Assembly (NCBI GenBank): GCA_025964675.1
Contig: JAOPYI010000030.1
Coordinates: forward strand, 1 to 64,000
Direction: 5' to 3'
Length of the DNA stretch: 64,000 nt
Source of the DNA: Sphaerisporangium sp.
GTDB lineage: Bacteria; Actinomycetota; Actinomycetes; Streptosporangiales; Streptosporangiaceae
Below the pieces are notes generated by a model. That model was not told the origin of the DNA. It saw only the letters and a list, made by a program, of their open reading frames with translations, and did not search any database. Both the position numbers and the translations under genes were made by a program. Shown in pieces: positions 45,491-64,000 of this stretch. The stretch's first letter is position 1. Each line of letters starts with the position of its first letter.

Positions 45491-46519
45491 GTGACACGGC
45501 GACTTGCGGAAGTGGCGAGAAAGGTCGGCGTCAGCGAGGCGACGGTCAGCCGGGTGCTCAACGGCAAGCCCGGCGTGGCGGACGCCACCCGCGCGGCCGT
45601 GCTGACAGCGCTCGACGTGCTCGGTTACGAGCGCCCCACCCAGCTCCGTGGCGAGCGCGCCCGTCTCGTGGGCCTGGTGCTCCCCGAGCTGGGGAACCCC
45701 ATTTTCCCCGCGCTGGCCGAGGTCGTGGGCGGCGCGCTGGCCCAGCAGGGGTTCACCCCCGTGCTCTGCACCCGCACGGCGGGCGGCCTGTCCGAGGCCG
45801 ACTACGTCGAGATGCTCCTGGAGCAGCAGGTCTCGGGGGTGGTCTTCGCGGGCGGCCACTACGCCGAGGCGGACGCCCCCCACGAGCACTACTTCCGGCT
45901 GCTCGAGCTGCGGCTGCCGGTCGTGCTGGTCAACGCCGCGACCGACAGACTCGACTTCCCTCGCGTGTCCACCGACGACGCCGTCGCGGTGGAGCAGGCG
46001 TTCGGCCACCTGACCTCGCTCGGCCACGAGCGCATCGGGCTGGTGCTCGGGCCGGAGGACCACATTCCCTCACGACGCAAATTGGCCGCGTTCACCGCGT
46101 CCGCGCGTAAGGCGGGCATCGAAGCGGGCCCAGAGTCGGTCGAGCGCACCCTGTTCTCCCCCGAGGGCGGACAGGCCGTGGTCACCAGACTGCTGAAGAG
46201 GGGCATCACGGGCATCATCTGCGCGAGCGACCCGCTGGCCCTCGGGGCGATCCGCGCCGTGCGCCGGTTCGGGATCTCGGTCCCCGGAGACGTGTCGGTC
46301 GTCGGATTCGACGACTCCGCCTTCATGAACTGCACCAATCCACCCCTCACCACGGTGCGCCAGCCCATCGAGGCCATGGGCAGGACCGCGGTGACCCTGC
46401 TGGTCAGCCAGATAGAGGGGGCGTCGGTCACCGCCGACGAGCTGCTCTTCGAGCCCGAGCTGGTCGTCCGAGGCTCCACCGCGCCCGCCAGGGCTCGTTC
46501 CATCACGCTCGTTGAGTAG
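45491..46519 (+). CDS. LacI-family transcriptional regulator
   Basis: The 342-residue repressor has an N-terminal helix-turn-helix ([21 protein letters not shown]) and hinge (G-Y-E-R-P), then a periplasmic-binding-like sensor domain ([21 protein letters not shown]). The start is GTG 45491. It likely responds to a sugar. A GH13 alpha-glucosidase lies at the right end of the window, but 16 kb away, so no target can be assigned. Confidence 0.93.
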
Positions 46520-46679
46520 AAGTAGGGTCCCGGTTCGGGCTCGTGAAGCCACTCGGGAAGATGGACCCCTGCGAAGACGCGGCACCCCTCGTGGAGGATC
46601 CGGCCGGCAGCCGGTGGATCGCCCCCGGAAACCACGCCCGAGGTCCGCAGGCCCCTCACAGCAAGAAAGGCAGGTCGGC

Positions 46680-47531
46680 ATGTCGCCCGATCGTCGAATT
46701 CTTTTCGTCCACGCTCACCCCGACGACGAGTCGATCGGCACCGGGGCCACGATGGCCGAGTACGCCGCCCAGGGGGCGCATGTCTGCCTGGTCACGTGCA
46801 CCCTCGGTGAGGAGGGCGACGTGATCCCCGCCGAGCTGCGGCACCTCGGCGCCGACCGGGAGGACCGGCTGGGGGAGTACCGCGTGGGAGAGCTGGCACG
46901 CGCCTGCGCGGCCCTAGGTGTGGACGATCACCGGTTCCTCGGCGGGGCGGGACGCTGGCGTGACTCCGGCATGATGGGCGGGCCCACCAACGACGATCCC
47001 GCGTGCTTCTGGCAGGCCGACCTCGATCTGGCGGCCGCGGAGCTGGTCGGCATCGTCCGGGAGGTAAGGCCCCAGGTGATCGTGACGTACGACGACAACG
47101 GTTACTACGGCCACCCCGATCACATCCAGGCACATCGTGTGGCGTGGCGGGCGTTCGAGAAGGCCGCCGATCCGGCCTTCGGCGAGGGGGAGCCGTGGTC
47201 GCCGTCACGGTTCTACGCCACAGCGATGCCGCTGTCGGTGCTGGAGCAGGCCGTCGACTCTGGGCCCTTCCAGCGTCTGAAGTCGGTGGAGGACTTCGGG
47301 TTCGGCGTTCCCGACGCCCAGGTCACCACGCGCGTCGACGCCACCGGACACCTGGACGCCAAGGTTCGCGCCCTGCGCGCCCACCGCACGCAGATCAGCG
47401 TGGACGGTCACCACTTCGCCCTGTCCAACGACGTGGGTCAGCCGGTGCTCCCCGTGGAGTACTTCACGCGGCTGGCGGGAGAGCCGGGGCCCCTCGGCGA
47501 GGACGGCCGCGAGACCGGCCTCTTCGGCTGA
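46680..47531 (+). CDS. mshB: N-acetyl-GlcN-inositol deacetylase (mycothiol biosynthesis)
   Basis: The 283-residue LmbE-fold zinc deacetylase has A-H-P-D-D-E (His13, Asp16) and H-P-D-H (145-148), the metal and catalytic motifs. It removes the acetyl group from GlcNAc-inositol, step three of mycothiol synthesis. The N-terminal start [13 protein letters not shown] and [10 protein letters not shown] fit MshB rather than the conjugate amidase Mca, which is close in sequence. ATG 46680 follows AAAGGCAGG. Confidence 0.9.
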
Positions 47532-47602: not shown

Positions 47603-47932
47603 TCACAACGGCGGGCCGGCCGGAGCAGCTGTGGTGAGGTGGCTGACCAGGCTGTCCATGTCCTCCAGGAAGCCGGCGTCGCCGTCGAACTCGATCTCGA
47701 CGTCCAGCCCCGTCTCGATGGCGTCGATCAGGCGCACCATGGAAAGCGAGCCGACGCCCAGGGCGACGAACGAGCAGTCGGCGCCGAGGATCTCCGTGGC
47801 CGAGATCTCCCCGTCACACGCCTCGGCCAGAGCTCCGGCGAGCCACCGCCTCAGCGACGACTCGTCGGGGAACTCCACGGGCCCAGCGGCATCGCCCACG
47901 CCGTCCTCTTTCCTCACGCTCCGCATGTCCAT
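47603..47932 (-). CDS. Discrete acyl/peptidyl carrier protein
   Basis: The 109-residue protein has a carrier-domain pattern with Ser62 in L-G-V-G-S-L-S as the phosphopantetheine site; the usual Asp before the Ser is Gly. It starts at ATG 47932 behind GAGGAG; an in-frame GTG at 47977 overlaps the NRPS stop (GTGA) and could add 15 residues. It is the last gene of the minus-strand NRPS operon. It may hold the starter acyl group supplied by the AMP ligase at 57745-59217, or a tailoring intermediate. Confidence 0.8.
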   Translation of the reverse strand: MDMRSVRKEDGVGDAAGPVEFPDESSLRRWLAGALAEACDGEISATEILGADCSFVALGVGSLSMVRLIDAIETGLDVEIEFDGDAGFLEDMDSLVSHLTTAAPAGPPL

Positions 47933-47973
47933 TCTGTTCTCCTCGTTGCCTTCAGGGATGGTCCAGCCGATGG

Positions 47974-50900
47974 TCACGGCGACTCCATGTCGAGGAGCCG
48001 GGCGGCCTCCTCGTCGGTCAGCTCCGACAGCTCGTCCATGAGAAGCCGTTCCACCGCCGTCGCCAGGCCGGCCACGGTGCGGTGGGTGAAAAGCGTGCGC
48101 ACGGGGACCTCGATGCCGATGGAGGCGCGGAGCCGCGAGCCCACCTGGACCGCCAGCAGCGAATGGCCGCCCAGCGCGAAGAAGTCGTCGAAGGCGCCGA
48201 TGTCACCGGCTCCCAGCACTTCCTTCCAGATCTCCGCCACCAGGGCCTCGGCGTCGGTACGAGGCGCCACGAAGGGGCGGTCGTCGTCGAGGTCGGGGGG
48301 CGGGAGGGCCTTGCGTGCGATCTTCCCACCCTGCGTGACCGGCAGCGCGTCGAGCACCACCCACACCTCTGGGACCATGTACGGCGGCAGGGCTCCGGCC
48401 AGCTCCCGCCGCAGCACGGCCGGGTCGGGCCGTCCCGAGGACCAGGGCTCGTCGGAGCCGGCCACGTAGGCCACCAGAGCGTTGTCGCGGGCGACCACGG
48501 CGGCCTGCCGTACGCCGGGATGGGCGAGCAGGTGTCCCTCGATCTCGGCGGGCTCGATGCGGAACCCGCGTACCTTGATCTGGTCGTCCAGGCGGCCGAG
48601 GAACTCCAGCCGACCGTCCGGGCGCCAGCGGACCAGGTCACCCGTGCGGTACAGCCGGCCTTCGAGGTGCGTGACGAAACGCTCGGCGGTGAGCTCGGGC
48701 CGTCCGAGGTAGCCTCGGGCGAGCCCGGCGCCGCCGAGGTGAAGCTCCCCAGGAGCGCCCGGGGGAACGCGCAGGCCATGCCCGTCAAGCACGATCGTGC
48801 GGGTCACGCCGATCGGCCGCCCGATGGGTGGGCGTCCCGTCGTGTCGGCGGCACCGAGGTCGGTGGCGGTCGCGATGATCGTGGCCTCGGTCGGCCCGTA
48901 CGTGTTCACCAGGCGCACCCGGTCGCCGAACCGCTCCCGCCAGCGGGCCACGGCGGCGGCATGGGCCTGTTCACCGCCGAGGATCACCAGGCGCAGCCGT
49001 TCCGGCCAGGCCACGCGGTCGATCTGGTCGACGAGCTGGTGCCAGTAGGCGGTCGGCAGGTCCAGCACCGTGATCTCGCGGCCCCGGGACCCGGCGAGCA
49101 GCTCGGGCAGGGTGAGCGCGCCGCCGGGCAGCAGCTCCACCGTGGCTCCGGCGGCGAGGGCCGGATAGATCTCCTCCGCGTGCGTGTCGAAGCTGAGCGA
49201 GGAGAACTGCACCACCCGGTCCCCGGGCCGCAGGTCGTAGGCCGCCTTCATCCATTCCACCCGGGCGGCCAGGGCCTCGTGCTCCACCACCACACCTTTG
49301 GGGGCACCGGTGGAGCCGGAGGTGTAGATGACGTACGCGGCGTCGGCGCCTTCGGTGGAGTGCGCCTCAGGCACGGCGGTGGAGGCGCGGTCCTCGATGA
49401 CCAGGTGAGGCACGTTCGCGGGCAGCAGGTGGGCCAGGTGCTCGCGCGTCACGACCACGGCCGCCCCGCTGCCGGCGACGAGCAGGCCGATCCGCTCGGC
49501 GGGAAGCTCCGGGTCGAGGGGCAGGTACGCGGCCCCGGCACGCCATACCGCCAGCAGCGCCACCACGGCGTCGGGCGAGCGGTCGGCGTGGACCCCGACG
49601 ACGGTCTCCCTGCCCACCCCGCGCTCGCGGAGCCTGCCCGCGAGCGCGGCCACGCGGCGGTCCAGGTCCGCGTACGTCAGCGTCTCGCCCCCGCAGCTCA
49701 CCGCGACGGCGCCCGGCCGCGAGGCCGTCACAGTGCCGATGAGCCCCGGCACGAGGGCACCGGGGGCCTGGCGTGACCGGGGCCGGCCGGGTTCCAGGGA
49801 GGTGGCCAGGAAGGGGCTGAGCTCCTCGAGGGTGCGCAGCCGCATCTCGTCGGCGGGTGTGAGGAGGGGCAGCGCCGAGACGGCACGGTCAGGGCCGTTC
49901 ACCATCGCCTGGCATAGGATGGCGAACCGCTCGGCGAGGGCGGCCACGGTCGCCTCGTCGAACAGTTCGGCGTCGTACCCGAGGACGAGGGACAACTCCC
50001 CGGGCCGCCGCCATGCCTCCAGCATGAGGTCGAACTTGACCTGCCGGTAGCCGGCGTCGAACCACTCCAGCCCCAGGTCACCGAAGGCGCTCCTCCCGGC
50101 GCCCTCGTCCTGGCTGTGGAGGATGGCCATGGTCTGGAAGAGGGGAGTGCGGCCGAGGTCCCGTGGCACGTCGAGGTCCGCCAGCACCTTCTCGAACGGC
50201 ACGTCCTGGTGCGCCATCGCGTCCAGCACCGTCGAGCGCGTGCGGTCCAGCAGACCGGTGAAGGACAGGTCGCCGGAAAGGTCTCCTCGCAGGACCAGCG
50301 TGTCGGCGAAGTAGCCGACCATCTGCTCGAACTCGACGTGGTCCCGCCCGGCCGAAGGCGAGCCGACCAGGATGTCGGTCTGCCCGGAGTGGCGTGCCAG
50401 CAGCACCTGGTAGGCGGCGAGCAGGACCATGAAGAGCGTCGCACCCCGTTCCTGCCCGGTGCGCTCCAGCCGTTCCGTGAGGGCGGAGGGCAGCTCGAAG
50501 GAGTGGAACCCGCCCCGGTGCGCCGGCACCTGAGGCCGGGGGCGGTCGGTCGGCAGCTCGAGCACGGGAGGGTCGGCGAGCTGTTCCCTCCAGTAGTCCA
50601 GTGCCGCCCCGTCCTCGCGGCCGCGTCGCAGGCGTGCGACGTCGCCGTACCGCAGCGGCAGCCCGGGTAGCGCGGCGGTCGTCCCGGCGCACCGGGCCTC
50701 GTAGAACCGGGTCAGGTCGTCGCCGAGGATGTTGAGCGACCAGCCGTCTCCCGCGATGTGGTGCAGAACGACGCACAGCACGTGGTCGTCCTGCGCGAGG
50801 CGAAGGAGGGTGACGCGGAGCGGAGGGGCGGTGGTGAGATCGAAGGGGGCGTTCGTCCGCTCCGCGACCAGCCGCCGGGCCTCGTCCTCTGCAGCGCGGG

Positions 50901-53900
50901 GTGCGCCGTCGCCGTCGACGCCCGTCGACGCCCCGTCGAGGAGGAGGTGTTCGATGGCCGGGCCGTCGGGGCCGACGACGGCGACCGGCTTGCCGTCCCT
51001 TTCGGGGTAGTGGGTCCGAAGGGTGTCGTGCCGTGCGACCAGATCGCGGAACGCGCCGGCCAGCGCCTCTCCGTCGAGCGGGCCGCGCAGCCGCCACACG
51101 ACATACATGTTGTAGGCGGCGTCGTCCGGATCGAGGCGGTGCAGGAACCACAGCCGCTCCTGCGCCGGGGACAGCGGCGGCGGCCCGTCATCGGGCGCGC
51201 CGTCCATGACCAGCCCAGCGTCCCCCGCGCCGTCCCGAATGAGCCCGGCCTCCCCTTCCTGTGCGGCGGCGGAGGATCTGTCATGTACGGCTGTGGCGTA
51301 TCCGGCCACGGTCGGATGGGCGAAGACGTCCCGCAACGGGACCTCCACGCCGAGCGCGGCCGTCATCCGCGCGGTCGCCTTGACGGCGAGCAGCGAGTGG
51401 CCGCCGAGCCGGAAGAAGTCGTCGTCCGCGCCCAGCGTCTCAAGGCCCAGGACCTCGGAGAACACCTCGGCCACCCGGCGTTCCAGAGGGGTCTCCGGCG
51501 GCCTGCCGAGGCCCCCCGGCTGCCTGCTGGGCGCGGGCAGGGCCTTCCTGTCGATCTTGCCGTTGGGGGTCATGGGCAGCGCGGGCAGGGAGATCACCTC
51601 GGCTGGCACCATGATGGCGGGCAGCGAGCGGGCCACGTGCGCCCGTACGCCGGACGCGTCCCCGACGACGTACGCGACCAGGACGTCCGCGTGGACCGCC
51701 GCGACCGCGCGCGTGACCCCGGGGCAGGACGACAGCACCGCCTCGACCTCGCCCAGCTCGACACGGTGCCCGCGCAGCTTCACCTGTCCGTCGGCACGCC
51801 CGAGAAAGGAGAGCCGCCCGTCGGCCAGCCATCTCACCCGGTCGCCAGTGCGGTAGAGCCGCGAGCCCGGGGGCCCGAACGGGTCGGGAAGGAAGCGCTC
51901 GGCGGTCAGCTCGGGACGGTTCAGGTAGCCACGCGCGACCCCGGCGCCCCCGATGAACAGCTCCCCTGGCACGCCCACGGGCACGGGGTCGAACCGGTCG
52001 TCGAGCACGTACACCTGGGTGTTGGCGAGCGGCCCCCCGATCGTCACCGTGTCCGGGTCCACGGGCACCCGCTCGCGGGTCGACCAGATGGTGGTCTCGG
52101 TAGGGCCGTAGACGTTCCACATGTCCCGTACCCGGCCACGCAGCGAGCGGGCGAGCGTAGGAGGAAGCGCCTCTCCGCCGACGAGCGCGGTGACCGAAGG
52201 GTGGTCGAAGCCCGCGTCGAGCATCGCCTGCCACCCCGAAGGCGTCGCCTGCACGTGCGTCACGGGATGTGCGGACGCGAGCCTCACCAGCGCGAGCGCG
52301 TCGGCGGCCTCCGGCGTCCCCGCCATGAGCACGTGACCCCCGCTGACCAGCGGCAGGAAGAGCTCGAGCCCGGAGATGTCGAACGACAGCGACGTGAGGG
52401 CCAGCCACAGGTCGCCCGGACCCGAGCCGAGCAGCTCCTTCATCGACAGGAGCAGATTGACCAGTGCCCGGTGCTCGATCGCGACGCCCTTGGGACGCCC
52501 GGTCGAGCCCGACGTGTAGATCACGTAGGCCAGGTCGCCGGACGCCGCGAGGGGCGCGGGCGCGGAGTCTGGCTCCCCTGCGAAGGCTCCGAGGTCGCCG
52601 ATCATGAGGGCCGGGACCCCGCACTCGGGGAGCCGGTCGCGCACCCGTTCCTCGGTCAGCAGCAGCCTGGCCCCCGAGTCGGCGAGGACGAACGACAGCC
52701 GGTCCTTCGGGTACTCCGGGTCCAGGGGCAGGTAGGCGCCTCCGGCCTTCATCACGGCGAGCAGCGCGACGAGCGTCTCCACCGAGCGGGTCGCGCACAG
52801 GGCGACGAGCACGCCGGGCCGTACTCCCTCACGCCGCAGCCGGTGGGCGAGCCGGTTGGCCTGGGCCTCCAGCTGGGCGTAGGTCAGGCAGTGTCCCTCA
52901 CAGGTCACCGCCGTCGCCCCCGGAAGGCCCGCGACCAGCTCCGGCAGCGTGGCGTCCGGGCGCGGCGCGGCGGTGTCGTTCCACTGCAGCAGGACGCGCT
53001 CGCGCTCCACCACGTCGAGAAGGTCCAGCTCGGACAGATGGCGGTCCGGGTCTTCGACGGCCTGGCACAGCAGGGCCTCGAAGTGCCCGGCCATGCGTTC
53101 CACGGTCTCGCGGTCGAACAGGCCGGAGTTGTAGATGAGGGAGAGCCGGAGCCCGTCGTCGTCCTCGCGGAACTCCGCCGACAGGTCGAAGGTCGCGAGG
53201 CGCACACCGGGGTCGAAAGGCTCGGTGGTGAGGCCGGCCAGCGGCGGAAGGCTCTCGGCGTAGTTGTAGAGGATGAGCTGCGCCTGGAAGAGCGGTGTCC
53301 GGCTGAGGTCCCTCGGGACGTTGAGCTCGCTCACCAGCCGGTCGAAGGGAAGGGCGTCATTGGAGTACGCCCCGAGGGCCGTGGTGCGGACCCGGGTGAG
53401 CAGCTCGCGGAAGGTCGGGTCGCCCGAGAGGTCCACGCGGAAGACCAGGGTGTTGATGAAGAGCCCGATCAGCGGCTCCAGCTCGGGCAGGCCCCTGCCC
53501 GCGACCGGGGTGCCGACGCAGACCTCGTCCTGTCCGGCGTAGCGGGCGAGCAGCGCCTGGTAGGCGGCCATCAGCGTCATGAACCGGGTGGCGCGCGCAC
53601 GCCTGCCCAGCGCGTCCATCTTCCCGCTCAGCGACGCGGGCAGCAGGCGGGTGACGCTGCCGCCGTCCGAGGTGGTGACCGGTGGACGCGGCCGGTCCGT
53701 GGGCAGGTCCAGCGTGGGAGCGCCTGCGAGCCGGTGCCGCCAGTATCCGAGCTGCTCGTCCATCACCTCGCCCAGCCGCGCCCGCTGCCACAGCGCGAAG
53801 TCGGCGTACTGGATCGGCGGCGGGGGCAGATCGGGCGTGCCGCCGTCCGTGAGCGTCGCGTACAGGGCCGCCAGCTCCCGGAAGAAGACCTCACTGGACC

Positions 53901-54453
53901 ACCCGTCCACGGCGATGTGGTGGAACACCACGCACAGGACGTGCTCGCGCTCGTCCAGGCGGAGCAGGCTCGCCCGGAACGGATGGCCGTGCTCGAGGTC
54001 GAACCTGCGGGCGACACGCTCAGCCGCCAGCCCCTTGGCCCGGACCTCCCGCTCGCCTGGCGGCAGCCCACTCACATCCACGAACTCGAGCCAGCCCACT
54101 TCAGAACCGGAACTGGTCGCAGGTCCGGGTTCCAAAGCGGAGGAGGCGCCGGAAGACCAGGTGGCGGCGGTGCTGGAGGGGGGCGGGTCGATGACCTGGA
54201 GGGGAGCCCCGTCCCGGCTCGGATAGCGGGTGCGCAGCACCTCGTGCCTGGCCACGATCTCGGCGATCGCCCGCTCCAGCGCGGCCGTGTCCAGCGGGCC
54301 TCGCAGCCGGTGGGCGATGAACACGTTGTAGGCCGCACCGCCGCTTCCCTCCAGCCGGCTGAGGAACCACATGCGCTCCTGGCCGTACGAGAGAGGCAGG
54401 TCGCCGAGGCCGTCGGGCCGGGCGACGATGTTCCCGCGCGCGAGAGTCCCCAT
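47974..54453 (-). CDS. Dimodular nonribosomal peptide synthetase (C-A-T-C-A-T)
   Basis: 2159 residues. C1 about 19-470 with H-H-I-A-V-D-G at 178-184; A1 about 500-975 with Y-T-S-G-S-T-G near 646; T1 Ser1020 (L-G-G-H-S-L). C2 about 1092-1530 with H-H-I-A-G-D-G at 1231-1237; A2 about 1575-2050; T2 Ser2098. There is no epimerase, methyltransferase or thioesterase; the protein ends 60 residues after T2. Reading the eight core pocket positions plus Lys gives D-I-L-Q-L-G-V-I-W-K for A1, a glycine code, and D-T-E-D-I-G-T-I-I-K for A2. A2's Glu and Asp lining suggests a basic amino acid such as Lys, Orn or beta-Lys. It starts three bases after the C-A-T NRPS gene. Confidence 0.95.
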
Positions 54454-54456
54454 TGA

Positions 54457-57400
54457 TCAGCGCTCCTGCCCGTGGGTGACGCGGGTGGCCGGGAGGTCCG
54501 AGATGCCGCCGATCAGGTCGCCGAACGTCGGGGCGTCGAAGAAGAGCCGGAGAGGCACCTCCAGTGCGAGACGCTGCCGGATGCGCGAGGCGATCTGCGT
54601 GATCGTCAGGGAGTGGGCCCCGAGGTCGAACAGGTCGTCGTCGAGCGCGATGTCGTCGACCCGCAGCACCTCCCGGCAGATGTCCCGCACGTCCGAGGCC
54701 AGGCCCGAGAGGGCCGTCCCGGGTGCGTCATCGCCTGCCGGGACGGGATCGGGCAGCGCGGCCCGGTCGAGCTTGCCGTTCGGCGTCAGCGGCAGCGTGC
54801 CCAGCAGCGTGAAATGGTCGGGAATCATGTACCTCGGCAGGCTGAGGGCCAGAAACGCCCGCAGAGCACCCGCGTCCACATCCGCTTCCCGCGCCGGCAC
54901 GCGGGTTCCGGTGCCCGTAGTGAGGACGAGGTAGGCGGCCAGCCGGGCGTCTCCTTCCTCAGGCTCGCGGACGACCACGGCCGCTTGGCCGACCAGCGGG
55001 TGTTCCAGGAGCTTGGCCTCGATCTCGCCGAGCTCGATCCGGTGACCGCGCAGCTTCACCTGGTTGTCGGTACGGCCGAGGAACTCGAGGGTGCCGTCCG
55101 CCCGCCACCGCGCCCGGTCGCCCGTACGGTACACACGGCCACCGCCGAACGGATCAGGGACGAACCTCTCCCTCGTCAGGCCCGGACGGCCGAGGTAACC
55201 GCGGGCCACCCCCGCGCCGCCGATGACCAGCTCGCCGGGCACGCCGACGGGGGCCAGACCGTCCTGGCCGTCCAGCACGTAGACGGCCGTGTTGGCGATC
55301 GGCCGCCCGATGGAGACCGCCGCCGGTTCGGCGGGTACGTCCCAGGCGGTGGACCAGATGGTCGTCTCGGTGGGGCCGTACATGTTGAGCAGGCGCTTCA
55401 CCCGGCCGCGCAGTTCGCGCGCGAGCGGCGGGGGCAGCGCCTCACCTCCGGCGAGCGCGACCACCTCGGGCCCGTCGAATCCGGCGGCCAGCAGCATCCG
55501 CCACCCGGAGGGCGTCGCCTGGACGTGGGACACGCGTTCGCTCTTGATCAGCTCCACGGCGCGGTCATCTCGTACGGCGTCCTCGCCCGCGACGATCACC
55601 CGTCCGCCCGTCACGAGCGGGAGCAGCAGCTCCAGCGCCGAGATGTCGAAGGAGAGGGACGTCAGGGCGAGCCAGGTGTCCCCGCGGGCCGCGCCGAGCA
55701 GGTCACGCATGCCGAGTAGCAGGTTGACCAGCGCCGAGTGCGGGACCACGACGCCCTTGGGCCGTCCGGTGGAGCCTGAGGTGTAGATGACGTACGCGGG
55801 CTCGAGCGCGTCCAAGGTGTCCGATTCATCTCCAGCCGGAGACCGCCCATCGACACGCGGGCCGGCGTTCGGTTCGGCCGGGTCGTCGGGATGGTCGACG
55901 CGGATCTGCTGGAGAGGGGTGGCGAGGTCTGTTTCGCCGTCTGTGAGGACGGTCTTCACGCCCGCGTCCGCCAGGATGAAGGCCAGGCGCTCGGCCGGGT
56001 AGCCGGGGTCGAGCGGCAGGTAGGCGGCTCCCGTTCTCATCACCGCGAGCATCCCGGCGATCATCGTCCACGAGCGTTCCAGGTGGAGCGCCACGAGCGT
56101 GCGCGCCCCCACGCCCTCACGCCGCAGCCGGTGGGCCAGCCTGCCGGAGATCGCGTCCAGCTCGGCGTAGGTGAGCCGCCGGCCATCGTGCACAACGGCC
56201 TCCGCGTCCGGGGTCTCGCGCACCCGCTCGGCGAACAGCGAGATCACCGTCGCGTCGGGCGGGTACGGCACCCGCGTGGCGTTCCATGCGGAGGACACCA
56301 GCTCGCGCTCCTCCGGCGGCATGACCGGCAGGTCCCGCACGCGCGTGTCCGGCTCCTCGGCCGCAGCCGTGAGCAGCGTCAGGAAATGGGCGGCGACGCG
56401 CCGGGCGTCGTCGGCGCCGATGCTCCCCGCGTCGTACCGCAGGCTGACGGACAGGTCACCGGGATTCTCGACGAACTGGGCGTTCAGCGTGTTCCTGACG
56501 GCGTGCGGGAACATCGTCCATTCCACGGTGGTGTCCACCCCTAGGAACGCCGGGTCCTCCGCCCGCCTGCGGTAGCTCACGGAGACCGGCGTCAGGGCCG
56601 TCCGCGACGTCAGCCCTCCCACAGCCTGGGTGAGCGGAACGTGCCGGAAGCGGTACAGCTCGCGCAGCTCGGTGCGTAACCCGGTGGCGAACGAGCGGAA
56701 CGTCATGTCCGGCGCCGGCCGTGCGGGGAGCGGCAGCTCGTTGACGAACAGCCCGATGTGGTCACGGGTCTCCTCGGTCCGGGTGCCGAGGTCGACCGAG
56801 AGCATGAGGTCGTCGTTGCCGTACCGGTGCATGAGCGCCCTGAGGGCCGCCACGACGAACTCGAAGCGGGTGACGCCCACCGCCTCTGCCGTCTTGACGA
56901 GCCCCGTCCACACCGCGCCGTCCAGCGTGAGGTCGACGCTCCCGCCCTGCGCCGCCCGCAGGCTCGTCCCTCGGTGGCCGGGGAGCACCACCTCGCCCTC
57001 GTCCCGCCACCTCGGCTTCCAGAAGTCCCTGGCCTGCTCCCGGTCCGCCTCGACCGTTGCCCTCTCGGCGGCGGCATGCGCGCGGTACGAGCCGCGCGCC
57101 TCGGCAAGAGGCGGGGCGCCATGCGGGGCGGCCGGGAGGACCGAGCCGTACAGGGCGGCGAGGTCGCGGACGAGCACGTCCTTGGACCCGCCGTCGAACA
57201 CCAGGTGGTGTGCCACGAACAGCAGCAGGTGGCGATCGGGGGCGATGGTGAAGAGCGTGAACCTGGCCAGCGGACCCCGTGTCAGGTCGAACTCCCGGGA
57301 GATCTCCTCCCGGACGAGGTGGTCGACCGACGCCTCCAGCCCGTCTCTCGGCTTTCCCGTGAGGTCGTGGTGCGTGATCGGTGGCGCGGTCGGCGAGGGC

Positions 57401-57603
57401 AGTACGAAAAGCACGCCGTCCTCCTCCTCGACGCGGCTCCGGAGCATCTCGTGGCGGGCCACCAGCGCGGCGCACGCCGAAAGCAGCGCCCCGGTGTCGA
57501 GCCCACCCCCGAAGTGGACGGCGAGGGGCAGGTGGTACGCGGAACCGGGGACGCCCGTCCGCTCGGCGACCCAGACACCGTGCTGGGCGAAGGAAGCCTG
57601 CAT
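54457..57603 (-). CDS. Monomodular nonribosomal peptide synthetase (C-A-T)
   Basis: 1048 residues from ATG 57603. C about 5-440 with H-H-L-V-F-D-G at 132-138; A about 445-950 with Y-T-S-G-S-T-G; T with Ser998 in L-G-A-H-S-L. The A-domain code read from the core motifs is D-I-L-Q-L-G-M-I-W-K, matching glycine-activating domains. Since the protein starts with a C domain and an AMP ligase gene lies just upstream, the C domain may accept an acyl starter. The start is uncertain: an in-frame start at 57711 would add 36 residues, and only a weak AGAAAGAGAA ribosome site precedes ATG 57603. Confidence 0.93.
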   Translation of the reverse strand: MQASFAQHGVWVAERTGVPGSAYHLPLAVHFGGGLDTGALLSACAALVARHEMLRSRVEEEDGVLFVLPSPTAPPITHHDLTGKPRDGLEASVDHLVREEISREFDLTRGPLARFTLFTIAPDRHLLLFVAHHLVFDGGSKDVLVRDLAALYGSVLPAAPHGAPPLAEARGSYRAHAAAERATVEADREQARDFWKPRWRDEGEVVLPGHRGTSLRAAQGGSVDLTLDGAVWTGLVKTAEAVGVTRFEFVVAALRALMHRYGNDDLMLSVDLGTRTEETRDHIGLFVNELPLPARPAPDMTFRSFATGLRTELRELYRFRHVPLTQAVGGLTSRTALTPVSVSYRRRAEDPAFLGVDTTVEWTMFPHAVRNTLNAQFVENPGDLSVSLRYDAGSIGADDARRVAAHFLTLLTAAAEEPDTRVRDLPVMPPEERELVSSAWNATRVPYPPDATVISLFAERVRETPDAEAVVHDGRRLTYAELDAISGRLAHRLRREGVGARTLVALHLERSWTMIAGMLAVMRTGAAYLPLDPGYPAERLAFILADAGVKTVLTDGETDLATPLQQIRVDHPDDPAEPNAGPRVDGRSPAGDESDTLDALEPAYVIYTSGSTGRPKGVVVPHSALVNLLLGMRDLLGAARGDTWLALTSLSFDISALELLLPLVTGGRVIVAGEDAVRDDRAVELIKSERVSHVQATPSGWRMLLAAGFDGPEVVALAGGEALPPPLARELRGRVKRLLNMYGPTETTIWSTAWDVPAEPAAVSIGRPIANTAVYVLDGQDGLAPVGVPGELVIGGAGVARGYLGRPGLTRERFVPDPFGGGRVYRTGDRARWRADGTLEFLGRTDNQVKLRGHRIELGEIEAKLLEHPLVGQAAVVVREPEEGDARLAAYLVLTTGTGTRVPAREADVDAGALRAFLALSLPRYMIPDHFTLLGTLPLTPNGKLDRAALPDPVPAGDDAPGTALSGLASDVRDICREVLRVDDIALDDDLFDLGAHSLTITQIASRIRQRLALEVPLRLFFDAPTFGDLIGGISDLPATRVTHGQER

Positions 57604-57744
57604 CAGTTCTCTTTCTGAGCGGGAAAACTCGTGTCGGGAAGCGGTCTCCACAGCCGTTGCGCGGCCATGAGGAGGCGGCGCGCGACCGGCTCCCGCGGGT
57701 ACGGGTGTCACCTGTGGTGATCGGCCGGCTCGGCGATAGGGCCG

Positions 57745-59217
57745 CTAGGAGTCCGCGGAGGACAGGACCAGCTCGCGCAGCTCGCGTTTGATCACCTTGC
57801 CGCCCGCGTTCTTGGGCAGTGAGTCGAGGATCAGGACCTGCCGGGGCAGTTCGTGCTCGGCGAGCCGGGGCGCGAGGAAGGTGCGCACGTCCCGCAGGGA
57901 GAGCGCGGCGGATGAGACGATCGCCGCCACCACCTGCGTGCCGAGGTCGGCGTGGGGGACTCCGAACACCGCCGTGTCGCTCACGGCGGGGTGCTCGTGG
58001 AGCGCCGCCTCGATCTTCATGGTCGAGATCTTGAACGCGCCGGACTTGATGATGTCGTGGTCGCGGTCGACCAGGTGGAGGTAGCCTTCGCCGTCCAGGT
58101 AGCCGATGTCGCCCATACGGACCCAGCTGCCCCGGAACACCGGGGATCCCGCCTGGCCGTCGCCGTAGTAGGCGCGAGGCACGGTCGGGGACCGCAGCCA
58201 CACCTCGCCGGGCTCTCCGGCGGGGACAACCCCGCCCGCCTCACCCGCGATGCGTATGTCCCCAGGCGAGGCGGGTCGTCCCACGGACGTGGGGCGCGCG
58301 GGGTCGAAGATCATTATCATCTGGGCGGGTGCCGCCTCGGTGGAGGTGTAGTAGTTGACGATCGTGGCGTTCGGGAAGACCTCGCCCAGCGCGACGGCGA
58401 CCGGTGGCGGGAGCGCGGCCGCCGTGGACCCGAACAGCCGCACGCTCGACAGGTCGTACCTCTCGTTGATCCTCCCCTTCAGCAGCTCGCTCGCCATGGT
58501 GGGGACGACGAAGACGGTGCCGACCGCCTGCGACTCGATGAGCCTGCCGAACCGCGCGGGGGTGAACAGTGGCAGGGTGAGCGCGGACGCCTTCGCGTCG
58601 AGGGCGTTGAGTAGCATGGTCTGGCCCGCGTTGGTGCCGACGGGGAAGGCGTGGAGGAAGTGCCGCGAGTGCGCGAGCGGGCGGCGCCGCCCGCTGTAGG
58701 TGCAGCCGTAGGTCAGGTTGGCGTGGCTCGCCGCCACGCCCTTGGGCTTGCCCGTGGTCCCCGAGGTGTAGAGGATCTGAGCGAGGCTCGCCTCCGTGAT
58801 CCGCACGTCCACAGGGCCCCCCGGCCCGGCTTCCAGGTCCTCGATCGTCGCCGTCCAGCCCCCCGGCGGCGTGACCCCCTGGACGCCGTCGTGTACGAGG
58901 CCGGAAACGGCGCAGTCGGACAGCATGAAGGCCAGCTCCGCCGGTGGGAACCGGTCGGACAGCGGCACCGCCACGCCGCCCGCCTTGTGGACCGCGCAGT
59001 AGGCGACGGCGAAGTCCATCCAGCCCCGGCCGCCGAATAGCAGCCCGACGCGGTCCCCGGCGCCGAGGCCGCGTTCGAGCAGGCCTCGAGCCACCGCGTC
59101 CGACCGTGTCTCCCATTCGCGGAACGTCAGCGAGCCGACGCCGTCCACGACCACGGCGGTACGTTCTGGATCTTCCTCGGCCCGTGTCGCCAGCAGCCGC
59201 GTCGTTGTCCTCATCAT
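57745..59217 (-). CDS. Acyl/aryl-AMP ligase (class I adenylate-forming enzyme)
   Basis: The 490-residue enzyme has P-loop I-L-Y-T-S-G-T-T-G-K-P-K-G near 150, Y-T-S-T-E-A near 275, G-D-I-G-Y-L near 370 and catalytic Lys in N-A-G-G-K-V-I-K-R near the end. It has no carrier domain. It would adenylate a carboxylic acid and load it onto CoA or a carrier, probably the discrete carrier at 47603-47932 or the C-A-T NRPS. It is first in the minus-strand operon and 141 bases from the NRPS start. The acid cannot be predicted reliably. Confidence 0.88.
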   Translation of the reverse strand: MMRTTTRLLATRAEEDPERTAVVVDGVGSLTFREWETRSDAVARGLLERGLGAGDRVGLLFGGRGWMDFAVAYCAVHKAGGVAVPLSDRFPPAELAFMLSDCAVSGLVHDGVQGVTPPGGWTATIEDLEAGPGGPVDVRITEASLAQILYTSGTTGKPKGVAASHANLTYGCTYSGRRRPLAHSRHFLHAFPVGTNAGQTMLLNALDAKASALTLPLFTPARFGRLIESQAVGTVFVVPTMASELLKGRINERYDLSSVRLFGSTAAALPPPVAVALGEVFPNATIVNYYTSTEAAPAQMIMIFDPARPTSVGRPASPGDIRIAGEAGGVVPAGEPGEVWLRSPTVPRAYYGDGQAGSPVFRGSWVRMGDIGYLDGEGYLHLVDRDHDIIKSGAFKISTMKIEAALHEHPAVSDTAVFGVPHADLGTQVVAAIVSSAALSLRDVRTFLAPRLAEHELPRQVLILDSLPKNAGGKVIKRELRELVLSSADS

Positions 59218-59351
59218 GGGGAACCCTCGATCGCCACGAGCATCCCCGTCGGGCGAGCTATCGGTATCACGACAAAAGACTGACAGATTATGAGAGAGTG
59301 ACGCAAGAAGTAGACATTGCTGATGAGGCGGCGGCGATACGGAGGTTTCTA
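59218..59351. promoter_or_regulatory. Divergent promoter region of the NRPS locus
   Basis: This 134-base region between the AMP ligase and the freestanding condensation protein is AT-richer than its surroundings (about 59258-59330). It must carry both promoters. A GGAGG ribosome site at 59341-59345 serves ATG 59352. No clear operator palindrome is seen. Confidence 0.45.
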
Positions 59352-60755
59352 ATGGCCGAATCCGGATGGTCGCCGCCGGCGCCGGTGGTTCGCAGCGGCA
59401 GGCTCACCTGGGCCCAGCACGAGTGGGTGCAGTGGATCCCCACCGACTCGCCCACCTCGTTCGAGGACAACATCTGCGCCGCGATCCCCGGGCGCGACGC
59501 GCCCCGTGAGGTGGTCGTCGCGGCCGTACGGGACGTCGTCCTCCGGCACGAGGGGCTGCGGTCGGTGATTGAGCGCGGGGAGGGCGACAGGGCCCGCCAG
59601 CACGTGTGCCAGGTGGACGCGCTGCTGGACGACATCATCGAGGTGACCGACCAGGACCCGGACGGCCCGCGGTTCGACACCCCCTGGCGGCGCACGTGCT
59701 TCCGGATCGGCGCCGAGTGGCCGATCAAAGTCGTGCTCTTCCTGCGCGGGCAGGCCGTGCGCCGGATCGACCTCGTGGTCGACCACGTCGCCATCGATCC
59801 GTGGGCGATGAGCGTCCTGTGCGGGGACCTCACCCAGGCGATCAGGGCGCGTGCCGCCGGGCGCGAGCCCTTCGCCGGCAAAGACCCGGCCGAGCAGCCC
59901 ATCGACGCCGCCGAGTCGGAGGTCACCGCCGCAGGGCCGGCCTACCAGCGGCGGGCCCTGCGCCACTGGGAGCGGCAGCTCAGGCGGCTCAGGGACGGGC
60001 TCGGCGGTTACGTGCCGCGTCCCGCCCCGCCCACTCCGCCCGTGCCGCTCACCGAGTACGGAGGTTTCCGCTCGTGCTGGCTGATCTCCCCCCGTGCGGG
60101 GGAGGCGGCCGAGGTCCTGGCCAGGACGACCGGCATATCGGCCTCTTCGGCCTTCCTGCTGGCCTTCGGCGCGGCCGTCTGCGCGGTGGAGCGGTCGCCG
60201 CTGGCCGGGCTGTTCGCGATCTCGGCCAACAGGCTCTCCGCTGGGGCCAGGGGCTCGGTGCGCAAGGCGACGATGACGCTGCCGGTGCTCGTCCCAGAGG
60301 CCACGCGCGACTCGTACGGCAAGGCGCTGCCGGAGTGCGCGGCCCAGCAGCTGCACGGGCATCGGTTCGCCAACGCCGACCCCTACGCCACCGAGCGGCT
60401 GTGCCAGGAGATCCTCGGGGGCCTCTACAAGACGGCCGTGGCGTACCCGCGGTTCAGCTACATGGACGAGGCGGTCGCCGGGCACTTCAGCACCGCGTGG
60501 TCGGCCGGGACCAGCGCGTTCTATGATGACGGCATCGTCACCTTCGCAGCACCGCGCCTGCTTGGCGCGAAGTACATGCTGACGGTCCTTCACCGCCGTG
60601 AGGGGGCCGTCCTCAGCCTGCAGTGGAGTGACGAGACCCACTGGGGCGAGACGGCGGAGAGCATGCTGAAGCACATCGAGGACCTGATGGTCTGGGCGGC
60701 CTCCGGCTATACCGGCGAGGTGCCCCTGCTGGGCCTCGACCGGGTGCCCGGATGA
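59352..60755 (+). CDS. Freestanding condensation-domain protein
   Basis: The 467-residue protein spans one NRPS condensation domain and nothing else. The start matches C1-type L-T-W-A-Q-H-E-W-V-Q-W. The active-site motif is D-H-V-A-I-D-P (144-150) instead of H-H-x-x-x-D-G: the second His and the Asp are kept, the first His and Gly are not. Later parts (S-A-S-S-A-F-L-L-A-F-G-A-A, L-F-A-I-S-A-N-R) fit the fold. ATG 59352 has a perfectly placed GGAGG. As the locus lacks a thioesterase, it could release the peptide onto an amine or alcohol, or join a side group (inference). It overlaps the phosphatase gene by ATGA. Confidence 0.8.
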   Translation: MAESGWSPPAPVVRSGRLTWAQHEWVQWIPTDSPTSFEDNICAAIPGRDAPREVVVAAVRDVVLRHEGLRSVIERGEGDRARQHVCQVDALLDDIIEVTDQDPDGPRFDTPWRRTCFRIGAEWPIKVVLFLRGQAVRRIDLVVDHVAIDPWAMSVLCGDLTQAIRARAAGREPFAGKDPAEQPIDAAESEVTAAGPAYQRRALRHWERQLRRLRDGLGGYVPRPAPPTPPVPLTEYGGFRSCWLISPRAGEAAEVLARTTGISASSAFLLAFGAAVCAVERSPLAGLFAISANRLSAGARGSVRKATMTLPVLVPEATRDSYGKALPECAAQQLHGHRFANADPYATERLCQEILGGLYKTAVAYPRFSYMDEAVAGHFSTAWSAGTSAFYDDGIVTFAAPRLLGAKYMLTVLHRREGAVLSLQWSDETHWGETAESMLKHIEDLMVWAASGYTGEVPLLGLDRVPG

Positions 60756-61474
60756 TCGACGATCGCCATCTCGACTGGGACGGCTGCCACAACGTCAGGG
60801 ACCTCGGCGGCCTCGGCACCGCCGACGGCAGGGAGACCCGCAGGGGCGCCGTCGTGCGCTCGGACACCCCCGACCGTCTCACGCCCGCCGGCTGGTCGGC
60901 CCTCCACGCGTACGGCGTACGCACGCTCGTCGACCTGCGCAACGACAGCGAGGTCAGGGCCTGGAACGGATACCGCCCGCCCGGGATCACCGTGCTCCAC
61001 ACTCCGCTGGACGACGACGGCGACACCGAGTTCTGGCAGCGGTGGAGGCACGTCTACGGCACGCCGCTCTACTACCGGACCTTCCTCGATCACAAGGCCG
61101 AGCGGTGCGCCGCCGCGGTCGGGGCCATCGCCCAGGCACCGCCCGGTGGGGTCCTGTTCCACTGTGTCGCGGGCCGTGACCGCACGGGCATCGTCGCCCT
61201 GCTGCTGCTCGCGCTCGCGGGTGTCGCGCCGTCCGACATCGCCTCCGACTACGGGCTCACCGCCGTGCGCCTGCGGCCCCTGTACGCCAAGCTGGGCCAG
61301 GAGGACGAGGCGCCGCTCATCGATCGCCGTCTCCAGCGGGAGAACACCTCCGCGCGGCAGATCATCCTCTCGACCCTGGCCGGCATCGACATCGAGGCGT
61401 ACCTCCTCGGCGGAGGGCTCTCCAAGGACGACCTCGACGCCGTCCGCGCCCGCCTCCTCGGCCCGTCAGGCTGA
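60752..61474 (+). CDS. Tyrosine-protein phosphatase family protein
   Basis: The 240-residue product has N-V-R-D-L-G-G near residue 15, R-S-D-T near 36, and the phosphatase loop H-C-V-A-G-R-D-R-T-G with Cys138 and Arg144. This is the SidP/PtpB-like DSP family common in actinomycetes. Its ATG overlaps the stop of the condensation-protein gene, so it is translationally coupled to it. The role may be removal of a phosphate from a pathway intermediate, or regulation; neither is proven. Confidence 0.88.
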   Translation: MIDDRHLDWDGCHNVRDLGGLGTADGRETRRGAVVRSDTPDRLTPAGWSALHAYGVRTLVDLRNDSEVRAWNGYRPPGITVLHTPLDDDGDTEFWQRWRHVYGTPLYYRTFLDHKAERCAAAVGAIAQAPPGGVLFHCVAGRDRTGIVALLLLALAGVAPSDIASDYGLTAVRLRPLYAKLGQEDEAPLIDRRLQRENTSARQIILSTLAGIDIEAYLLGGGLSKDDLDAVRARLLGPSG

Positions 61475-61497: not shown

Positions 61498-62799
61498 TCA
61501 CCTGCCGGCGGTGACGTGCCCGCGGCCGCCGGGAACGGTGGTCGGGAAGACGTTCATCGCCTCGGCGTACACGCCGAGCAGCCGGTCCACGGCCTCGTCC
61601 CAGCCGAACCTGGAGGCGTGCGCGACGGCGGCCTGCCCGAGCGCCCGCAGCCGGTGCGGCGCGGCCACGAGGTCGGCCAGCACGCGCGCGTACCTTGCCG
61701 GGTCGTGCCCCTCCACGAGCACGCCTGAGACGCCGTCCCGTACGGCCGTGCGAAGCCCGCCGGCGGCCGACGCCACGACAGGGGTCCCGCATGCCTGCGC
61801 CTCCACGGCGACCAGGCCGAACGTCTCGGCGTGCGAGGGGACGACGACCGCCGTGGCAGCCCGGTACCAGTCGGCCAGCACGGCCTGGTGGCACGGCGGT
61901 TCCAGCCGGACCTGACCCGTGATTCCGAGATCGGCGGCCAGCTCGGCGAGGTGACCGGGGTTCGCGCGACCGGCCCCGCTCGGCCCGCCCACGATCGCCA
62001 CCACGAGTCGTCCCGCCAGCCGGGGATCGTTCTGGATCATGCGGGCGGCGGCCTTCAGCAGCACGTCCGGGCCCTTGAGCGGCTGCACGCGCCCGGCGAA
62101 GAGCAGCAACACGGCGCCCGGGGGAAGGCCCAGCCGTCGGCGGGCGTCGTCGCGGGACCCGGGACGGAAGAGGGACAGGTCCACCCCGGGGTTGATGGTC
62201 CGCACGCGTGCCGGATCGGCTCCGTAGAGCGTGACGAGGTGGTCGGCCTCCTGCACGGTGTTCGCGACCAGCCGGTCGGCGGCGGCCACGACCTCGGTCT
62301 CCGCGGTGATACGGCTCCCGGGTTCACGCTCGTCGCCTTTCGCGAGCGCCGCGTTCTTGGTCTTGCCCAGCGAGTGCATGGACTGGACGAGCGGGACGCC
62401 CCACCGCAGGCGGGCGGCCATGCCGACCTGGCCGGACATCCAGTGATGGGCGTGGACGAGGTCGTACCAGCCGTGGTCGCACGCGGCCTCGGTGCGCAGA
62501 AGCTCGTCGGCGAACCTGCCCAGCGTGCCCGGCAGCTCCGCCTTGTCCAGCCCTGGGGCGCCCGCGACCACGTGCCTGACCAGCACGCCGGGGATCAGCT
62601 CGGCCAGCGGTGGCGCGTCCCGGGAGCTCGCACGGGTGAAGATCTCCACCTCGACGCCCTGCTTGGCCAGCCGTCTCGCGACCTCGACCACATAAACGTT
62701 GAGCCCTCCCGCGTCGCCTCCGCCTGGCTGGTCGAAAGGAGAGGTCAGCACACTTATGGTCGCGATTCGCCTGGGAAGCCGGGGAAAGGTTCGCCGCAC
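61498..62799 (-). CDS. mshA: D-inositol-3-phosphate glycosyltransferase (mycothiol biosynthesis)
   Basis: The 433-residue GT4 glycosyltransferase has the N-terminal S-P-F-D-Q-P-G-G-G-D-A-G-G-L-N-V-Y-V characteristic of MshA, and the donor-site stretch H-A-E-T-F-G-L-V-A-V-E-A-Q near 320 with E-x7-E. It joins GlcNAc from UDP-GlcNAc to inositol-3-phosphate, the first step in mycothiol synthesis. GTG 62799 follows AAGGTGGG. mshB is 14 kb away beyond the NRPS locus. Confidence 0.93.
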   Translation of the reverse strand: MRRTFPRLPRRIATISVLTSPFDQPGGGDAGGLNVYVVEVARRLAKQGVEVEIFTRASSRDAPPLAELIPGVLVRHVVAGAPGLDKAELPGTLGRFADELLRTEAACDHGWYDLVHAHHWMSGQVGMAARLRWGVPLVQSMHSLGKTKNAALAKGDEREPGSRITAETEVVAAADRLVANTVQEADHLVTLYGADPARVRTINPGVDLSLFRPGSRDDARRRLGLPPGAVLLLFAGRVQPLKGPDVLLKAAARMIQNDPRLAGRLVVAIVGGPSGAGRANPGHLAELAADLGITGQVRLEPPCHQAVLADWYRAATAVVVPSHAETFGLVAVEAQACGTPVVASAAGGLRTAVRDGVSGVLVEGHDPARYARVLADLVAAPHRLRALGQAAVAHASRFGWDEAVDRLLGVYAEAMNVFPTTVPGGRGHVTAGR

Positions 62800-62893: not shown

Positions 62894-64000
62894 CTAGCTG
62901 ATACGGAGCCAGACGGCAGTGTCGGAGGGAAGTTCGTTCCCCTCCAGCGCCCCGCTGGCGAGCAGCACGCTGTCGTGAGGCGGGAGCTGCACCGGATGGG
63001 TGTTGAAGTTGACCACGCAGGCCAGGCCGGAGTCCCGGGCGAAGGCCAGTACGCCGTCCTCGGAGTCGAGCCAGCGCAGCGAGCCGTCGCCGAGCTCGGT
63101 CCGCCGGATCCGCAGCGCGGTCCGGTAGAGGCACAGCATGGAGTTCGAGTCCGTGGCCTGCGACTCGGCCGTCAGGCTCTTCCAGAAGGCGGGCTGGGGC
63201 AGCCAGGGTTCCCCGGTGCTGTAGCCGAAGGGGGGCTCCTGGCCCGACCACGGCAGCGGCACCCGGCAGCCGTCCCGGCCGGGAACGGTCTGCTTCGACC
63301 GGGTCCATATCGGGTCCTGGCGCAGCTCGTCCGGGATGTCGTCGACCTCGGGCAGCCCGAGCTCCTCGCCCTGGTAGACGTAGACGGTGCCGGGCAGGGA
63401 CATCGCCAGCAGAGCCGCGGCCCTGGCCCTGCGCTCGCCGAGCACGAGGTCCGACGGCGCGCCGTCCCTGCGCTCGGCATGGTCGAAGGACGTCACCGCC
63501 CTGCCGTACTTCGACACGGGGCGCGGTACGTCGTGGTTGGACAGCACCCAGGTCGGCGGGGCGCTGATCGGCACGTGCGTGGCCAGCGTCATATCGATCG
63601 ACGCGCGCAGCTCGTCGGCCTCCCACGGGCGTGCCATGAAGTCGAAGTTGAACGCGGTGTGCATCTCGTCGGGACGCAGGTAGAGCGCGAAACGCTCCTG
63701 GTCTGGGAGCCAGACCTCGCCGATGAGGATGCGCTCGCCGTACTCGTCGGCGATCTGCCGCCAGCCCCGGTAGATCTCGTGCACGGCGTCGTGGTCGGTG
63801 TAGGACTCCTCGACGCTGTCGAAGTCCTTGATCAGCACGGCCGCGGAGTCGATGCGGATGCCGTCCACACCGCGGTCGAACCAGAACCTCAGCACGTCCT
63901 CGAACTCCGCGATGACCTCCGGATTGCTCCAGTTGAAGTCGGGCTGCTCGGGGGCGAACAGGTGGAGGTACCACTGGCCGTCGGGGACCCGGGTCCAGGC
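62894..64000 (-). CDS. Glycoside hydrolase family 13 alpha-glucosidase, C-terminal part (5' end outside window)
   Basis: The minus-strand frame is open from the right edge and stops at TAG (62894-62896). The visible 368 residues contain GH13 motifs: G-V-D-G-I-R-I-D-S-A with the nucleophile Asp, I-G-E-V-W with the acid/base Glu, and V-L-S-N-H-D-V-P-R with the third Asp. The Q-W-Y-L-H-L-F-A-P-E-Q-P-D-F-N-W stretch fits oligo-1,6-glucosidase/alpha-glucosidase-type enzymes. It lacks a visible secretion signal because the N-terminus is missing. The LacI regulator at 45491 is too far away to assign as its controller. Confidence 0.9.
   Translation of the reverse strand, partial: AWTRVPDGQWYLHLFAPEQPDFNWSNPEVIAEFEDVLRFWFDRGVDGIRIDSAAVLIKDFDSVEESYTDHDAVHEIYRGWRQIADEYGERILIGEVWLPDQERFALYLRPDEMHTAFNFDFMARPWEADELRASIDMTLATHVPISAPPTWVLSNHDVPRPVSKYGRAVTSFDHAERRDGAPSDLVLGERRARAAALLAMSLPGTVYVYQGEELGLPEVDDIPDELRQDPIWTRSKQTVPGRDGCRVPLPWSGQEPPFGYSTGEPWLPQPAFWKSLTAESQATDSNSMLCLYRTALRIRRTELGDGSLRWLDSEDGVLAFARDSGLACVVNFNTHPVQLPPHDSVLLASGALEGNELPSDTAVWLRIS

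Follow-up and report, generated by a model that had tools for sequence, protein, structure and literature searches.

In the passages on mycothiol of two papers (PMC4360819, PMC9736012), MshA gives N-acetylglucosaminyl-inositol phosphate (GlcNAc-Ins-P), MshA2 gives GlcNAc-Ins, and MshB gives glucosaminyl-inositol (GlcN-Ins), to which MshC adds cysteine before MshD acetylates. VibH and SchH are examples of freestanding amide synthases acting on free amines (passage of PMC10587159). In lincosamide synthetase, an amide links a carrier-bound amino acid to an amino sugar, and mycothiol-related proteins take part; the part of that system outside nonribosomal peptide synthetase (NRPS) chemistry comprises LmbD, LmbE, LmbF, and LmbV, and LmbD was without known homologues at the date of that account (PMC4351081, in the passages cited). 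Here we describe an NRPS locus of Sphaerisporangium sp., flanked by paralogues of MshA and MshB, on a 64,000-nucleotide stretch of DNA (contig JAOPYI010000030.1, positions 1 to 64,000 of the forward strand; hereafter the window). Our leading reading, held at somewhat short of an even chance, is that the locus encodes most of a split NRPS pathway that would conjugate an acyl or peptidyl chain to GlcN-Ins. The predicted ligation, the putative substrate of the phosphatase, and the predicted product build on the gene content and linkage found here.

As in mycothiol synthesis, the locus holds MshA and MshB paralogues that score over curated cut-offs, with a phosphatase gene beside them, and the predicted GlcN-Ins intermediate is the same. 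Unlike that route, it yields no MshC or MshD match among the proteins scanned and has a freestanding condensation-like protein (Cprot) and NRPS carriers instead, so that the amine would carry a peptide or acyl chain, not cysteine. Lincosamide synthetase (lincomycin, celesticetin) resembles the predicted pathway in the amide joining of a carrier-bound unit to an amino sugar and in its mycothiol-related proteins, and is set apart by the non-NRPS part described above; the present locus has a relative of the condensation (C) domain, a multimodular NRPS, and MshA- and MshB-type enzymes, not an Mca-like amidase. Like VibH and SchH (vibriobactin, serratiochelin), Cprot is a freestanding C-domain relative that could in principle join a carrier-bound acyl group to a soluble amine; its predicted acceptor, unlike theirs, is an amino-pseudodisaccharide and not a polyamine, and its motif reads DHxxxD versus HHxxxD. 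Modules are written below with C, A (adenylation), T (carrier), TE (thioesterase), and MFS (major facilitator superfamily) for their domains. The genes concerned are the following.

46677..47531, plus strand: MshB paralogue (MshB-2), GlcNAc-Ins deacetylase family (TIGR03445)
47603..47977, minus strand: discrete carrier protein (PF00550, 22.2 bits, cut-off 20.8); start possibly 47932
47974..54453, minus strand: NRPS2, C-A-T-C-A-T, 2159 amino acids (Pfam, above cut-off)
54457..57711, minus strand: NRPS1, C-A-T, 1084 amino acids (Pfam, above cut-off)
57745..59217, minus strand: AMP-forming acyl/aryl ligase, 490 amino acids (Pfam, above cut-off)
59352..60755, plus strand: freestanding condensation-like protein (Cprot), 467 amino acids (profile similarity to C domains)
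60752..61474, plus strand: phosphatase of the protein tyrosine phosphatase (PTP) type (PF13350, 171.8 bits), candidate GlcNAc-Ins-P phosphatase
61498..62799, minus strand: MshA paralogue (second copy), GlcNAc-inositol-phosphate synthase family (TIGR03449)

An earlier note made from the sequence of this stretch had placed six named genes at 47603 to 61474, and all six are present, five identified by Pfam above cut-off and the exception, Cprot, supported by profile. The note had spoken of seven linked parts; it names six, and six are there. Its account of three C-A-T modules, in the order NRPS1 then NRPS2, linked to an AMP ligase, a discrete carrier, and a freestanding C protein, also holds. The minus-strand genes are tightly packed, with gaps of 33 and 3 bases, and the long form of the carrier overlaps NRPS2 by 4 bases. 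Outside the frame of that note lay the MshA paralogue, the MshB paralogue, and a 4-base overlap between the Cprot and phosphatase genes, which together point to an amino-sugar acceptor. Genes in relatives were called with a GC-position script, which makes their starts approximate, and any gene lacking a Pfam or NCBIfam assignment took its name from inspection by eye. Sphaerisporangium corydalis (G002) has the identical gene set in the identical arrangement, and in four further Sphaerisporangium genomes in which the MshB-2 locus was read (G001, G003, G004, and G007) part of the flanking genes is present and the cluster is absent. Because the arrangement recurs in S. corydalis and the flanks occur without it elsewhere, the cluster is no chance assembly. 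In G001, the homologue of the window gene at 62894-64000 lies about 3.5 kb beyond MshB-2; the cluster therefore occupies that interval in the window genome.

The MshA paralogue scores 550.7 bits with TIGR03449 (cut-off 462.5), and the five cluster copies that we found span 543.9 to 567.5 bits; the ordinary MshA of the same genome, on contig C294, scores higher at 628.8 bits. An independent search of 341 genomes of one GTDB family (all counts out of 341 refer to this set, at the E-values named) returned the paralogue in 5 at E <= 1e-185, and these are exactly the five genomes in which Cprot is found at 63% identity or above, namely the window's own, G002, and three Streptosporangium genomes (G306, G313, and G314, the last being Streptosporangium subroseum). 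MshA above cut-off was counted in 20 genomes: two copies in each of the five paralogue carriers and one in each of the other 15. Among the genomes checked, what sets the five apart is the MshA paralogue. All five, across two genera, keep the order Cprot, phosphatase, MshA paralogue, and the paralogues form a separate clade (100/100 support) with 57-62% identity to ordinary MshA.

Every paralogue keeps both glycosyltransferase glutamates and the Lys and Arg aligned to K78 and R154 of 3c4q, and every one has His at Tyr110 and Ser at Thr134 (3c4q numbering); ten ordinary MshA copies aligned alongside keep Tyr, Thr, and Arg, with Lys replaced by Arg in three. K78, Y110, T134, and R154 of 3c4q belong to the inositol-phosphate site. 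Clade-specific changes at two of these four positions in all five copies would suit an enzyme with a changed acceptor, one that glycosylates another phosphorylated cyclitol or the peptide itself, with the phosphatase then removing that phosphate. We regard this as improbable, given the identity to ordinary MshA, the scores above the equivalog cut-off, and the retention of the phosphate-site Lys and Arg and the glycosyltransferase glutamates.

For Cprot, a GGAGG site places the likely start at 59352 and not at the open reading frame start of 58944. PF00668 gives 22.1 bits on the window protein, under the gathering cut-off of 30.6, and matches 9 of the 11 Cprot orthologues at E <= 0.01. A family profile built from the 11 sequences matched solved C domains at E 5e-18, and hhalign of Cprot with C domains of the same pathway gave 97.5% over 238 columns. 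These profile comparisons support Cprot as a C-domain relative and rule out an unrelated protein. PDB entry 4znm, which we take to be SgcC5 of the C-1027 pathway, is among the matches of the Cprot-family profile (E 3e-10). SgcC5, likewise a freestanding C-type protein, couples a beta-amino acid held on a carrier with a hydroxyl of an enediyne.

Searching the 341 family genomes with Cprot at E <= 1e-25 gave 11 matches, which split into the five named above and six at 45-50% identity; weaker Cprot-like proteins (26-35%) in other Sphaerisporangium were left out of the counts five and eleven. At the same threshold, a single genome among 394 sampled, the window's own, had a match, and we rejected the idea that Cprot is common across the class. 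The motif DHxAxDxW is invariant in all 11 orthologues, keeping the second His and the Asp of HHxxxDG with the first His changed to Asp; at the Gly position, the MshA-linked five read DPW, G212-215 read DGW, and G161 and G187 read DAW. The earlier note had asked that Cprot and the AMP ligase both stay linked to the NRPS genes in homologues. The outcome is mixed. All 11 genomes, the window genome among them, have Cprot next to an NRPS. The stretches read show no AMP ligase in 8 of the 11 (G161, G212-215, G306, G313, and G314, where the contig ends inside the locus), and the seven uncut genomes of those eight have the closest AMP ligase homologue at another place in the genome.

MshB-2 scores 381.7 bits with TIGR03445 (cut-off 224.35) and 195.2 bits with the Mca model, under the latter's own cut-off of 277.15; a second MshB of the same genome, on contig C153, scores 365.6 bits. 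MshB above cut-off was found in 20 of 20 genomes searched, with two copies in each of 11 Sphaerisporangium and the 3 Streptosporangium carriers and one in each of the other 6. At E <= 1e-125, the only Streptosporangium genomes with the MshB-2 type itself are the cluster carriers (3 of 16), and all 11 Sphaerisporangium have it; strict cluster specificity was thus rejected for Sphaerisporangium and kept for Streptosporangium. MshB-2 stands beside the cluster in all five carriers, on the carrier side in Sphaerisporangium and on the MshA side in Streptosporangium, and this change of side argues for a functional association with the cluster. Between the MshA paralogue and MshB-2 of G306 lies a helix-turn-helix gene (L062:7855-8826; PF13384, 26.6 bits, cut-off 24.6), with a homologue in the equivalent place in G313 (L063:7559-8569), the Pfam scan having covered L062 only. 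It is a possible cluster regulator.

These distributions bear on a more ordinary explanation, in which the locus makes an acyl-peptide by standard NRPS chemistry, Cprot and the carrier serve starter loading or a tailoring acylation, and the msh-type genes are passive neighbours. Six genomes (G212, G213, G187, G004, G009, and G007) fit it in having the carrier with Cprot or a Cprot-like gene and only one MshA, and so do AMP ligase homologues beside C-T and E1/E2-type genes and the presence of AMP ligase homologues in 24 of 33 genomes searched. Passive carriage is, however, an unlikely cause of a linkage among MshA paralogue, phosphatase, and close Cprot that is exact in all five genomes, which span two genera differing in the side on which MshB-2 lies, and the Cprot motif also differs between the MshA-linked five (DPW) and the other six (DGW or DAW). 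On balance we consider this explanation unlikely.

The phosphatase has the P-loop HC[VM]AGRDRTG in all five cluster copies and a PDB match to PtpB (1ywf, E 1e-8). To our knowledge, the gene for the mshA2 phosphatase is still unidentified and there is no sequence model for it. The present gene is a candidate GlcNAc-Ins-P phosphatase (MshA2) by its linkage. In literature passages on this step, those of PMC9736012 and PMC4360819 cited above among them, mshA2 is used as the name of a phosphatase or gene, with no locus or sequence given there. Like MptpB-type phosphoinositide phosphatases, the cluster enzyme has a P-loop of the form HCxxGxDR with the catalytic Asp; unlike them, it has Arg for Lys at P-loop position 5.

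Together, the MshA paralogue, the phosphatase, and MshB-2 could instead raise mycothiol or GlcN-Ins to protect the producer itself or to balance its redox state, in which case the NRPS product would carry no GlcN-Ins. Both paralogues do belong to the mycothiol route, and a mycothiol-related protein in an antibiotic cluster is known, LmbE in lincomycin (PMC4351081, in part). Extra mycothiol alone is nevertheless a poor fit, because no MshC or MshD was among the matches listed for nine locus proteins scanned with NCBIfam, eight of them also with Pfam, a count that leaves aside copies elsewhere in the genome. The genome further has an ordinary MshA and a second MshB outside the locus, and the phosphatase gene overlaps that of Cprot. 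We rate the self-protection explanation as unlikely.

Specificity codes were read by eye from motifs as DILQLGMIW for NRPS1 and as DILQLGVIW and DTEDIGTII for NRPS2. We take the first two to denote glycine and the third an acidic pocket for which a basic residue is plausible, in agreement with the Gly, Gly, and basic residue put forward earlier. No useful literature match was found for the third code. By sequence, the solved structures closest to the AMP ligase are 8wev (feruloyl-CoA synthetase, E 5e-57) and 8weu (fatty-acyl-CoA synthase, E 6e-57). A discrete carrier of the window type accompanies Cprot or a Cprot-like gene in the window genome and in G002, G313, G212, G213, G187, G004, G009, and G007; it was not found in G161.

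The window lacks a thioesterase, reductase, or exporter, as had been reported, and this part of the claim stands; for the genome as a whole it does not. On contig C127:28821-34343 (L078:8821-14343), among neighbours that look unrelated, lies an orphan gene for a C-A-T-TE-MFS protein of 1840 amino acids with all domains over the Pfam cut-off. We take its A-domain code, DVWHISLID, to mean serine. The window has the carrier gene immediately after the bimodule, with no C-A-T-TE-MFS gene between them. In G306, the bimodule is directly followed by a C-A-T-TE-MFS protein (by Pfam), and in G213 by a C-A-T-TE-MFS protein (its end assigned by eye and homology) and then the carrier; the orphan is 62% identical to this G213 counterpart over 1814 residues.

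The TE-MFS family is widespread, with matches in 29 of 34 genomes at E <= 1e-60, and a 90% orthologue of the orphan was found only in S. corydalis, where it is likewise outside the cluster. The next full-length matches are those in the clusters of G212-215 (67-68%), in G007 (65%), and in G306 (63%); for the MFS part by itself, identity rises to 72% in G001. Across 11 Sphaerisporangium, the 90% orthologue is present in both cluster carriers and absent from all nine non-carriers; G006 has none at the 90% threshold, and its MshB-2 matches the window copy at 89%, about as closely as the G002 copy does at 88%. In a tree of C-A-T-TE-MFS proteins, branching order inside the clade was not resolved. 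The C-terminal tail of NRPS2 resembles those of bimodules that precede C-A-T-TE-MFS proteins, and this tail and the orphan N-terminus (KQALLAQRLRRR) resemble pairs in which both genes adjoin, a likeness that lends weak support because other C-A-T-TE-MFS proteins have similar N-termini. We conclude that the orphan probably serves the window NRPS pathway, and a pathway with no thioesterase or exporter was rejected at the level of the genome. As a separate observation, the thioesterase motif of the orphan has Cys (YGHCGVGS), in common with G002, G007, G212, and G213, and that of G306 has Ser (YGQSSVGS).

The orphan also bears on the version of the pathway proposed in the earlier note, in which an acyl-Gly-Gly-(basic residue) product is released by Cprot alone, with neither thioesterase nor sugar. 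In its favour, no thioesterase gene is seen in the cluster, and the stretch of G313 that was read has the bimodule and carrier with no C-A-T-TE-MFS gene, although one lies elsewhere in that genome at 58% identity to the window genome's orphan. Release by a freestanding C protein for want of a thioesterase does not sit with an orphan C-A-T-TE-MFS gene that is 90% identical in the sole other cluster carrier among the 11 Sphaerisporangium, nor with relatives placed after the same bimodule in G306 and G213; a helix at the N-terminus of the orphan, similar to those of the proteins encoded after that bimodule, adds a weak point, as other C-A-T-TE-MFS proteins have such ends too. We hold this version to be very improbable.

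Under the GlcN-Ins conjugate reading, the AMP ligase would prime the assembly line with an acyl group, the modules would add Gly, Gly, and a basic residue, and the orphan C-A-T-TE-MFS protein would be able to add Ser, off-load, and export. The MshA paralogue would couple GlcNAc to inositol phosphate, the PTP-type phosphatase would strip the phosphate from that product, and MshB-2 would free the amine to give GlcN-Ins, the amino-pseudodisaccharide of mycothiol. Cprot, in the place held by the cysteine ligase MshC in mycothiol synthesis, would let this amine attack the thioester on the discrete carrier or on the last T domain, as VibH does with norspermidine. A peptide coupled to GlcN-Ins in this way, by a VibH-like C protein and with a private front half of the mycothiol route, would represent a new class of nonribosomal products; this stronger form we put forward as tentative, at less than an even chance. 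No such pathway and no NRPS product with glucosaminyl-inositol was found among the open-literature matches listed, subscription papers and MIBiG being outside that scope.

Several observations weigh against the conjugate reading. The six Cprot relatives at 45-50% identity stand in clusters of genomes that have no MshA paralogue, and a private MshA is therefore not needed by Cprot everywhere. G306 has both a TE-bearing third module in its cluster and the MshA paralogue, so that Cprot is not a mere thioesterase substitute, and the discrete carrier was not found in this MshA-paralogue genome. MshB-2 occurs in all 11 Sphaerisporangium, cluster present or absent, and may therefore be a native neighbour of the cluster in that genus. 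With its Tyr-to-His change, the MshA paralogue could act on another acceptor. The phosphatase has, in all five copies, Arg for the conserved Lys of the phosphoinositide phosphatase family, in which HCXXGKDR carries conserved Lys and Asp (PMC3091653, in the passage cited), and the Asp is kept. Its homologues turn up in many genomes (55 of 341 at E <= 1e-45), and no msh gene lies near them in eight of eight contexts outside the cluster, two of which span only 6.5-6.8 kb; a gene found solely with msh genes was rejected on this basis, and the phosphatase gene probably entered the cluster from a general family. An AlphaFold2 model of Cprot made from three sequences reached a predicted local distance difference test score (pLDDT) of only 31.6. 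The acceptor of Cprot and the A-domain specificities are predictions from sequence.

Related clusters form a wider family. In G004 and G009, a bimodule, a carrier, and a Cprot-like gene (27-33% to the query Cprots) run divergent to an AMP ligase (57-58%), C-T, E1-alpha, E1-beta, E2, and C-A-T-TE-MFS genes; G187 has Cprot, AMP ligase, C-T, and E1/E2-type genes with the carrier and a C-A-T protein with a reductase-like end; and G007 has C-A-T-TE-MFS, carrier, and Cprot-like genes. The NRPS clusters in L091 and L092 (G004, G009), L093 (G310), and L038/L067 (G187) share the AMP ligase, a C-T didomain, and 2-oxoacid dehydrogenase E1/E2-type genes, with C and T as separate genes in G310 instead of a didomain. 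Two of the E1/E2 genes of G004 were assigned by Pfam (E1_dh, 2-oxoacid_dh), the remainder by eye. This AMP ligase/C-T/E1/E2 set may load an unusual acyl unit onto a carrier. The window genome itself holds a second NRPS locus at C236:74001-100000 (L079, L080), where a discrete carrier and a freestanding C protein stand with genes that by eye resemble those for P450 and oxidoreductases; we set this locus aside as another pathway. By eye, the right flank of the window cluster (window 62894-64000 and L068:12807-19223) holds an alpha-glucosidase gene, the one at 62894-64000, and sugar ABC transporter genes; its far right end has a LacI-like gene with 86% identity to another one on the left flank of the cluster, at window 45491-46519.

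For this family, the apparent lack of a thioesterase in a cluster can reflect place, as the terminal C-A-T-TE-MFS gene may sit elsewhere on the chromosome. If the conjugate reading is true, primary thiol-cofactor chemistry would have been copied into a secondary pathway, an amino-pseudodisaccharide would be a new acceptor for freestanding C proteins, and the cluster would supply a concrete candidate gene for the MshA2 phosphatase step.

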